From IMG/VR virus record IMGVR_UViG_3300006616_000068, positions 1-25,713 of that record: a stretch of DNA of 25,713 bases. One strand, given 5' to 3'. The stretch is from a virus. Positions 436 through 2,128 of this stretch are shown here, in pieces. How positions within the stretch are numbered: the first letter of the stretch is position 1; each line of letters begins with the position of its first letter. A model generated the notes under the pieces. That model saw only the letters and a list, made by a program, of their open reading frames with translations, did no database searches and had not been told where the DNA came from. Both the position numbers and the translations under genes were made by a program.

Positions 436-851
436 TGAACACTGATCGTAAACATTGGGGTGAGATTTGGTATTCTTATAGGCTGCATAAGTTTGAAAAG
501 GAGCAGATAAGGCTAGGATTAAGAATGCCACCTTCCAGGCATGTGCAGAGCCCATTTAAAAATACAGCTAACAGAGCCATTGGTTTTAAATCAACTAACT
601 TTCCAGGCAAACACAGTGCTGTAAAGCAACAGCGTATATTAAAGTCTGTAGGGCGCGGCGGAAGATACACAACGTCAATGATTGCCAGGAATACTGGATT
701 AAGTGTTTCATATGTAGCCCCACAATTAAACATTTTGTTTAAAGAAGGTTTAGTTGACAGGGTTTCTGAGAACCAACCGCCTTTTATTGGGGCGTTGGGT
801 GGTAAGAAAACTGTTAGGCATGTTTATTTTAAAAAGGAGAAAGATGAATGA
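435..851 (+). CDS. Winged-helix-like DNA-binding protein (138 aa)
   Basis: This start gives MNTDRKHWGEIW at the N-terminus and is coupled to the preceding stop (TGATG). The frame is open back to an ATG at 222 (209 aa), but those extra 71 residues overlap a better candidate gene and look low in order. The C-terminal half (about residues 65-130) reads as a winged helix-turn-helix: a basic helix (AVKQQRILKSV), a turn, 'TTSMIARNTGLSVSYVAPQL' as helix-turn-recognition helix, then 'LFKEGLVDRV' and a beta wing ending VYF. Such domains usually bind DNA as regulators. It is the only candidate transcription regulator before the methyltransferase and overlaps that gene by 4 bases (ATGA). Family assignment is from pattern only. 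Confidence 0.6.
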   Translation: MNTDRKHWGEIWYSYRLHKFEKEQIRLGLRMPPSRHVQSPFKNTANRAIGFKSTNFPGKHSAVKQQRILKSVGRGGRYTTSMIARNTGLSVSYVAPQLNILFKEGLVDRVSENQPPFIGALGGKKTVRHVYFKKEKDE

Positions 852-2128
852 AATATGGTTCAGTATGTTCTGGCGTAGAAGCTGCCACAGTTGCTTGGCA
901 CGATTTAGGCTTTGAGCCCCAATGGTTTAGTGAAGTTGATGCATTTCCAAGTGAAGTGTTAAAGCATCACTATCCACATATAACAAATCATGGAGATATG
1001 ACAAAATTTAAGGAATGGAATAATGAAAAAACAATTGAGCTTCTTGTTGGCGGAACACCCTGTCAAAGCTTCAGCGTCGCTGGGCTTAGGAAAGGATTAT
1101 CGGACCCAAGGGGCAACCTCATGCTCACCTATCTTGCAATGGCTGACAGATTTAAGCCCAAATGGCTTGTCTGGGAAAACGTCCCTGGCGTCCTGTCCTC
1201 AAACGGCGGAAGGGATTTTTCAACCTTCCTCACAGCGATGGGGAAAATCGGGTATGGGTTCGCCTACAGAGTGTTGGACGCTCAATACTTCGGAGTTCCA
1301 CAAAGACGCAGACGTGTGTTCGTTGTCGGATGTCTTGGAGACTGGCGAAGTGCCGCAAGTGTTTTATTTGAGCCAGAAAGCTTGTCTGGGGATACTCCAC
1401 CGAGCAGAGAAAAGGGGGAAAGAATTGCCCCAACAGTTACAGTCGGCCCTCCTTTCAGTCGTACAGGAAACTCAAGAGTAGAAACAGATGCTTTAGTTAC
1501 CACAAGAAAAACAGGTTCACATTGGGATGGGGATTTTCCCCACCCAACGCTCACTCAATCTACTAAAAGTTCTGGCGGCATTGGAGCTAGTAACCAGGAG
1601 ATATTTGGTGGGCGCGGTGCAGGTTTAGTACCTGCAAGGATGAGAGGCTTTGGGGATTATATCCAAGATGATACTGCAAGCACAGTTAAAGCAAGAGATC
1701 ATAAAGATGCCACTGATCTTGTAACTTATGCTTTGCCTGGAAATTGGATTGGCAGAAAGCCTGAGAACGGCGGCAACCAAGTAGAGCCCTTTGTAGACTT
1801 ATCACCATGTCAAACCGCAACAGATGTTCATGCTGTAGCCACCACAAAGCAAACGCATGTAAATACCATCACTGCGTCGTATGGTATGGGTGGCGCAGAT
1901 TGGGAAACTAAACCATTAGTTTATGATCATGTAGTAAGAAGACTTACTCCAAGAGAAGTTGAGCGTTTGCAGGGTTTTCCTGATGATTATACAAAAATAG
2001 CTTGGAGAAACAAATCGGCGGAAGATTGCCCAAATGGTCATAGATACAAAGCTATGGGTAATTCAATGGCAGTTCCTGTAATGCGTTGGATAGGTAAACG
2101 AATAAAAATGGTGGAAGATGGTAAATAA
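848..2128 (+). CDS. dcm: DNA (cytosine-5) methyltransferase
   Basis: This enzyme transfers a methyl group from S-adenosylmethionine to C5 of cytosine in a specific DNA site. In a phage this normally protects the genome from host restriction. The motifs are in canonical order: motif I near the N-terminus (CSGVEAATVAW), the catalytic Pro-Cys-Gln of motif IV at residues 71-73 (GGTPCQSFSVAG, Cys72), Glu-Asn-Val of motif VI at 110-112, and motif VIII QRRRR at 152-156. A long target-recognition region (about 185-365) follows, then motif IX (RRLTPREVERLQGFPDDY) and motif X (YKAMGNSMAVPV). At 426 aa it is complete. GGAG lies 8 bases upstream of the ATG. No cognate restriction enzyme is adjacent, so it is probably a solitary protective enzyme. 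Between about 1023 and 1481 its third codon positions are much richer in G/C than elsewhere, exactly where another ORF is nested. Its recognition sequence cannot be read from the sequence. Confidence 0.95.
   Translation: MKYGSVCSGVEAATVAWHDLGFEPQWFSEVDAFPSEVLKHHYPHITNHGDMTKFKEWNNEKTIELLVGGTPCQSFSVAGLRKGLSDPRGNLMLTYLAMADRFKPKWLVWENVPGVLSSNGGRDFSTFLTAMGKIGYGFAYRVLDAQYFGVPQRRRRVFVVGCLGDWRSAASVLFEPESLSGDTPPSREKGERIAPTVTVGPPFSRTGNSRVETDALVTTRKTGSHWDGDFPHPTLTQSTKSSGGIGASNQEIFGGRGAGLVPARMRGFGDYIQDDTASTVKARDHKDATDLVTYALPGNWIGRKPENGGNQVEPFVDLSPCQTATDVHAVATTKQTHVNTITASYGMGGADWETKPLVYDHVVRRLTPREVERLQGFPDDYTKIAWRNKSAEDCPNGHRYKAMGNSMAVPVMRWIGKRIKMVEDGK
1023..1481 (+). CDS. Possible overprinted gene nested in the methyltransferase (152 aa)
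   Basis: A 152-codon ORF lies wholly inside the methyltransferase gene, shifted by one base. It has its own AGGA (1011-1014) 8 bases before ATG 1023, and it stops at TAG 1479-1481. Its frame places its second codon positions on the methyltransferase wobble positions. By hand count, methyltransferase wobble G/C is about half inside this ORF but only about a quarter to 30% before and after it. That pattern is expected if both frames are constrained. The product contains GKTSLASCPQTAEG, SGMGSPTECWTLNTSEF, LSDVLETGEVP and GILHRAEKRGKELP. From memory, similar phrases occur in hypothetical phage proteins near cytosine methyltransferases, but I cannot check this here. Alternatively it is a by-product of a strongly conserved methyltransferase core. 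No function can be assigned. Confidence 0.4.
   Translation: MKKQLSFLLAEHPVKASASLGLGKDYRTQGATSCSPILQWLTDLSPNGLSGKTSLASCPQTAEGIFQPSSQRWGKSGMGSPTECWTLNTSEFHKDADVCSLSDVLETGEVPQVFYLSQKACLGILHRAEKRGKELPQQLQSALLSVVQETQE

Follow-up and report, generated by a model that had tools for sequence, protein, structure and literature searches.

Organization of the Methyltransferase Locus

The whole stretch of viral DNA analyzed here, 25,713 nucleotides in length and hereafter called the window, carries a C5-cytosine DNA methyltransferase (MTase) gene, read in what is called frame 0 below, which contains a second open reading frame (ORF) shifted by +1 (Table 1). The product of positions 848–2128 is a C5-methyltransferase by its full-length match to the PF00145 profile (E 2.6e-57, residues 1–420) and by the fold of its catalytic domain, the AlphaFold model being superimposed on M.HhaI with a Z-score of 25.9 and an rmsd of 2.4 for 222 aligned residues. 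The model was confident for the catalytic domain. Residues 196–350 had no confident fold, which could fit either a recognition part in need of a partner or simply a variable sequence. The frame 0 segment RRLTPREVERLQGFPDDY, aligned with M.HhaI, is presumably motif IX, as judged by its pattern.

The MTase gene lies in the same block as genes for a RuvC-like resolvase, an exonuclease VIII-like protein, a Gp2.5-like single-stranded DNA-binding protein and a primase-helicase. Minus-strand genes further downstream include those for the portal, scaffold and major head proteins. Reading the sequence upstream of the MTase gene, we noticed a 69-aa ORF (226–435) overlapping in a different frame the 209-aa ORF at 222–851. 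Its stop codon (433–435) shares bases with an ATG at position 435 which is in frame with 222–851, and the winged-helix gene located there may start at this ATG, behind the small gene.

Table 1. Coordinates of the MTase gene and of the features nested in it (positions in the window).
Feature	Position	Strand	Description and basis
C5-cytosine DNA methyltransferase (MTase) gene, host of the overlap	848..2128	+	Frame 0, 426 aa; PF00145, AlphaFold model compared with M.HhaI
Ribosome-binding site of the candidate nested gene, AGGA within AAGGAA	1011..1014	+	8 bases 5' of the nested ATG; sequence, Lys codon 55
Candidate nested (overprinted) gene, 152 aa	1023..1481	+	+1 frame of the MTase; ORF, constraint, conservation
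Conserved C-terminal helical segment of the candidate nested gene, residues 99–148	1317..1466	+	AlphaFold, linker resemblance

The preliminary description of the window had pointed out the 152-codon ORF and its AGGA, and both were found as described, the ORF starting with ATG in the +1 frame. As had also been said, the wobble bases of the MTase are the second codon positions of the nested ORF, and their G+C content rises to 0.464 in the interval from 0.259 before it and 0.278 after it. This rise had been taken as a mark of double coding. It is real in the window but is not diagnostic: an increase inside the corresponding interval was seen in 39 of 52 genes similar to that of the window, 49 of 59 genes of the MM1-like set and only 8 of 17 genes of the P1-like set (both sets are defined below), and, of 30 control MTases lacking a nested ORF, 19 showed it as well. 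From these controls the loci L564, L569 and L572, and other rows of a search with Dcm, had been omitted by eye. These three loci possess a nested-type VLFE segment. The doubt raised beforehand, that relatives lacking the ORF might show the same shift, was therefore partly justified, the shift being unspecific.

The +1 Frame Is Open in Related Methyltransferase Genes

A tblastn search with the nested protein retrieved the MTase genes of many phages, among which Roseobacter phage CRP-821 showed 57.5% identity to nested residues 1–134. Viral contigs were also scanned by MTase similarity alone, which gave at least 600 loci, and the 80 best were taken. The +1 frame was open over at least 149 codons in all 79 of these loci that covered the region, and the +2 frame was mostly much shorter. 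Frequent stops in homologues would have spoken against a gene, and none were encountered. Most of the 79 loci had a stop in the nested frame upstream of the nested start. Among 85 loci, the start codon was ATG in 64, TTG in 18 and GTG in 3.

In all 166 loci matching the nested protein, 80 of which had been retrieved through this very similarity, the match corresponded to the +1 frame of an MTase and did not cross a stop. In another scan, 79 of 80 matches occupied the +1 frame relative to an MTase, and on inspection the 80th was in +1 relative to the larger MTase frame. Phrases similar to those of the nested product had been said to occur in phage proteins encoded near methyltransferases; the relation is sharper than this, as they belong to the corresponding +1 frame in the MTase genes of other phages. 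No free-standing copy of the nested gene was seen in the loci examined, which came from scans of best matches only.

Synonymous Variation Is Reduced over the Nested Frame

The main set used to measure constraint comprised 52 dereplicated relatives picked by MTase similarity alone. Since they are related sequences, the counts given here do not represent independent events. Four-fold degenerate sites differed in 32.6% of comparisons within codons 59–208, versus 66.5% and 67.8% outside. When the amino acid was the same, the codon was identical with a frequency of 0.663 in codons 59–210, compared to 0.441 before and 0.402 after; the corresponding values for shuffled genes were 0.324, 0.372 and 0.344. 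In bins of eight codons, the constraint climbed at codons 49–56, which correspond to the ribosome-binding site, and dropped at codons 209–224, at the nested stop. At codon 55, lysine was encoded by AAG in 48 of the 52 genes, versus 232 of 601 lysine codons elsewhere in the same genes, a choice that preserves AAGGAG or AAGGAA. A decrease in synonymous variation over the interval, which a double-coding region ought to show, was thus present and was limited to it.

The amino acid identity of the +1 frame was 0.589, versus 0.276 in the shuffled genes. It already reached 0.556 (0.297 shuffled) in codons 59–160, and in codons 161–210 the value of 0.662 exceeded that of the MTase itself (0.555). Differences synonymous in frame 0 created 11 stops in the +1 frame, compared to 1614 under random synonymous choice (20,967 comparisons). 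This comparison and that of the four-fold sites used a fixed interval, unlike the shuffling of the longest open stretch. In the latter, the absence of observed stops in the 52 genes was imposed by construction, the interval being the longest open stretch, and the appropriate statistic is the proportion of shuffles that attained the observed length. For the locus L007, used as a stand-in because its MTase is 100% identical to that of the window, none of 1000 shuffles holding the protein and the codon usage reached its 159-codon +1 stretch. Over the 52 genes, the median P was 0.004, with more than 5% of the shuffles reaching the observed length in four genes.

Two further sets were assembled by MTase similarity. 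The P1-like set contained 17 dereplicated genes from 86 usable loci, six of the 86 being previously known carriers, and the MM1-like (pneumococcal) set contained 59 from 78 usable loci. All genes in both sets had a +1 stretch of at least 141 codons, and the synonymous constraint followed the boundaries of their own ORF, at approximately codons 97–264 in the P1-like and 49–192 in the MM1-like genes. In codons 229–240 of the P1-like genes, the +1 identity was 0.84, versus 0.60 for the MTase. As judged from these aligned genes, the +1 frame is under purifying selection between the start and the stop of the ORF in three subfamilies of phage MTases. We consider it almost certain that 1023–1481 is a selected coding gene. 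The proposal that the anti-restriction gene of the phage also encodes a second protein is, to this extent, borne out by the comparison of sequences.

Distribution and Database Records

The +1 nested gene was also found in the P1 Dmt gene, in P7, CobraSix, Vibrio phage CP-T1 and an Aeromonas phage, as well as in gut Heliusvirales phages and mycobacteriophages. A profile built from 64 of the nested proteins matched the P1 +1 frame (E 1.7e-33, C-terminal part) and ORF14 of phage MM1 (E 1.4e-27). A shorter +1 match was present in ZF40 (112 codons, E 7.9e-11). In a scan of bacterial genomes, 374 stretches encoding a nested relative were detected, of which 80 were retained, in proteobacteria, acidobacteria, planctomycetes and others. 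Escherichia coli K-12 Dcm gave no nested match and has +1 stops in the region. Thirty PF00145 loci were taken from 19 bacterial genomes that had been picked as nested-gene carriers: 17 had a strong nested match (E <1e-69), one a weak match (E 0.02, 43 codons), the other 12 had no match, and all matches on the MTase strand were in +1. In these comparisons, the nested gene is not a general feature of C5-MTases, the ordinary bacterial enzymes, Dcm included, being devoid of it.

The window nested protein matched the PHROG 16143 profile (E 6.2e-8, residues 49–119), as did all 64 members of the nested alignment A1. PHROG 16143 corresponds to ORF14 of Streptococcus phage MM1 (NC_003050), a whole-length match (E 2.5e-81), which is annotated inside ORF13 under the label "DNA methyltransferase". 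MM1 ORF14 shares with the window ORF its location within a phage C5-MTase gene, in the +1 frame. The label implies an enzyme, and in PHROGs the nested protein has the name of its neighbor. The nested protein matched neither the PF00145 profile nor the catalytic motifs of C5-methyltransferases. No Pfam family was found, the E-value limit being 1 for the window protein and 0.1 for the 64 members; at the thresholds used, no NCBIfam family was found, a single row having an E-value of 0.16. The gene was unannotated in P1 and in most other records examined. Its carriers are phages and prophages from many bacterial groups.

Several loci were unusual in their organization. In Mycobacterium phage Constella (L183, MH399772) and in L472, the frame of an HNH endonuclease is inserted in the MTase gene after motif VIII and before the nested C-terminal part; the latter persists as an ORF of 82–88 codons. 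In Mycobacterium phage Dove (L006, PQ184790), the annotation divides the MTase into the consecutive genes 107 and 108, and the nested ORF is located in 107. In Pectobacterium phage MA12 (L176, MN692199), both the MTase and the nested frame are unannotated, and two ORFs on the opposite strand are listed instead.

The C-Terminal Part Resembles a Linker of Ordinary Methyltransferases

The AlphaFold model of the nested protein, made with 137 sequences, had a mean pLDDT of 60.8 and was confident only at the C-terminal helices (101–107, 118–131 and 137–148; pLDDT of 82–94 in blocks 111–150), residues 1–100 being of low confidence. Sequence searches of the PDB with the nested protein returned weak unrelated matches (best E 0.27) or none. 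The best fold match (VIA, Z 3.8) was to one of the chains in an RNA-polymerase complex and was not believed. In BFVD, the matches of interest were an 81-aa protein of Mycobacterium phage Thibault, at E 0.014, and, at E 0.022, a cytosine-specific methyltransferase, both above 0.001. The second, A0A8S5LZA8 of Podoviridae sp. ctDgT26, is 521 aa long and matched the model weakly over 162 columns with 26% identity; it is possibly a form in which the nested part is fused in frame.

The C-terminal stretch of the window nested protein, LSDVLETGEVPQVFYLSQKACLGILHRAEKR, resembles the segment that follows motif VIII in frame in ordinary MTases, for example FGDILEKRVDPKYTISDKLWSGHQRRKEMH in L439. With hhalign, a broad nested profile was placed at this same position among 435 columns of pooled MTases with a P-value of 0.0042 and a probability of only 8.2%, the pool mixing frame 0 proteins of nested-type loci with ordinary enzymes; against 12 ordinary MTases only, the same place was found with a P-value of 0.019. 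An HMM of the linker built from 15 ordinary MTases was run on 271 nested-type genes, which are related to one another, and its best score fell in the nested C-terminus in 187 genes, in frame 0 in one, in +2 in 54 and elsewhere in +1 in 29, single hits being non-significant (best E 0.7). Elements resembling L.DIL/TV.EAI, a pattern defined post hoc, were seen in frame 0 of 4 of 128 nested-type enzymes versus 22 of the 30 nested-negative enzymes, selected by eye as above. Among 30 viral MTase loci, the four with an in-frame linker were all without a nested match, and the 26 others all had one, which was weak in one case. A profile of the C-terminal nested part found none of 337 frame 0 MTase targets, Dcm included, at E up to 10, which argues against an easy detection of the relation. 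The last 50 residues of the nested protein likely correspond to the linker that joins motif VIII to the target-recognition part, displaced from frame 0. We say likely, and not more, because the single alignments are weak. If so, the locus would offer a clean case of an enzyme family in which a conserved segment switched reading frame.

A Proposed Two-Chain Methyltransferase and Alternative Explanations

We propose the following model. The nested product would be initiated independently at its own ribosome-binding site and would end inside the MTase gene. Compensating indels would presumably have moved its linker to the +1 frame. The protein would constitute a small, beta-like second subunit, co-expressed from one message and bound to the MTase chain, to which it would supply in trans the missing linker, helping to build or position the small DNA-recognizing domain. 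The two-chain enzyme, obtained from one stretch of DNA read twice, would methylate the phage DNA against host restriction. Taken as a whole, an overprinted gene containing a displaced linker and encoding the second subunit of a two-chain MTase appears to be the best explanation, and a fairly probable one. For the role of the nested protein as a subunit acting in trans, taken separately, we see about even chances, the argument coming from sequence comparison.

Few overprinted genes are known in double-stranded DNA phages, and the evidence for them usually comes from one or two genomes. The closest precedent for the proposed arrangement, compared here by its description, is M.EcoHK31I, the small chain of which is reportedly encoded within the gene of the large one, in a different frame. 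It is presented in PMC3404938 as one C5-MTase made of two polypeptides, with motif IX in the small chain. In the window, by contrast, motif IX is not restricted to a small chain, as frame 0 possesses it, and it is the linker that would be in the nested chain. The same source cites M.AquI and artificially split C5-MTases as activities obtained from two chains (PMC3404938); their chains are consecutive parts in one frame order, whereas here a single stretch is used in two frames. Overprinting and two-chain MTases are thus already known. A widespread, selected +1 gene in phage MTases appears to be undescribed, no description of this overlap having been found in a literature search with few subscription papers in its scope.

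The MTase gene of phage SpSL1 carries the nested ORF, and this MTase is active in its phage according to PMC6755750, which gives m5C at 102 of 113 RCGRC sites. As given in that source, mass spectrometry of the virion identified eight structural proteins and Cds21 only (PMC6755750); the nested ORF was unannotated and could therefore not have been named. The P1 dmt gene is stated to be non-essential for plaques under CRISPRi (PMC10695390), as we would expect of a counter-restriction enzyme on a permissive host.

A distinctly less probable explanation, yet the most serious competitor of the subunit, is that the nested protein is real but independent of the MTase, for instance a small anti-defense or regulatory protein that arose in the MTase gene and shares its transcript. 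Many overprinted phage genes have a function unrelated to that of the gene they overlap, and no MTase similarity was found in the N-terminal two-thirds of the nested protein by Pfam and PDB sequence searches. Against this, every copy in the best-match scans lay in an MTase gene, and the C-terminus of the nested protein resembles an MTase linker that is absent from frame 0. It is rather improbable that a programmed frameshift near motif VIII switches the ribosome to +1, with no independent initiation, and yields a truncated MTase ending in a canonical-like linker. The linker-like part does come directly after motif VIII, where a +1 shift restores an ordinary-looking order, but the +1 frame is constrained from its start codon onward, the start codon and AAGGA(G/A) are preserved, and a same-frame stop precedes the start in most loci. 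Finally, that an untranslated +1 frame owes its openness and similarity to chance, to the MTase protein, to codon usage or to G+C content is very improbable and was rejected by the synonymous shuffles: the wobble shift is indeed unspecific, and a long +1 stretch is not uncommon in GC-rich relatives (four genes being above 5%), but shuffles preserving protein and codon usage reproduced neither the openness nor the +1 identity, the +1 frame surpasses frame 0 in C-terminal conservation, substitutions avoid +1 stops, and Dcm and 12 of the 30 PF00145 loci are without a nested match.

Should the nested protein be a subunit of the MTase, phage MTases expressed from frame 0 only, or recoded synonymously, may miss half of the enzyme, with consequences for MTase assays, gene synthesis and studies of counter-defense. 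More broadly, and only tentatively, the chances being somewhat short of even, a large class of phage C5-MTases, including P1 Dmt, may be two-chain enzymes with the second chain encoded in the +1 frame. An old double frameshift would have shifted the linker, which would work in trans fused to a new N-terminal part, frame 0 would have gained a segment from the same bases, and the PHROG 1008 subfamily would possess a longer +1 partner.

Longer +1 Frames of the PHROG 1008 Type

PHROG 1008 corresponds to ORF28, the "Mte8-like protein" of Escherichia phage K1ind2, in which both frames are annotated (L436, 1413–2342 and 1501–2298). Like the nested gene, it is a +1 ORF within a phage C5-MTase gene. 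It differs in belonging to another MTase subfamily and in its length of 203–424 codons, which spans most of the MTase gene. In Brucella and Zavarzinella genomes, too, the PHROG 1008 proteins correspond to +1 ORFs inside this other subfamily. The similarity to the nested protein was weak, E ≤0.01 being reached by 12 of 64 members, and could perhaps be due to the related frame 0. We considered whether the nested protein might be a relative of a free-standing PHROG 1008 gene, and rejected this, the PHROG 1008 ORFs examined being also inside MTase genes.

The loci of this type were L436 (K1ind2), L429, L430, L434 and L610–L652. The +1 frame was open over 203–424 codons in 31 of 31 dereplicated genes selected by their MTase. 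Shuffling put 178.5 stops in the +1 stretches, the observed zero being imposed by construction. Codon identity over codons 21–300 was 0.43–0.70, versus 0.29–0.46 in the shuffled genes, and the PHROG 1008-type +1 ORF merits a separate study.
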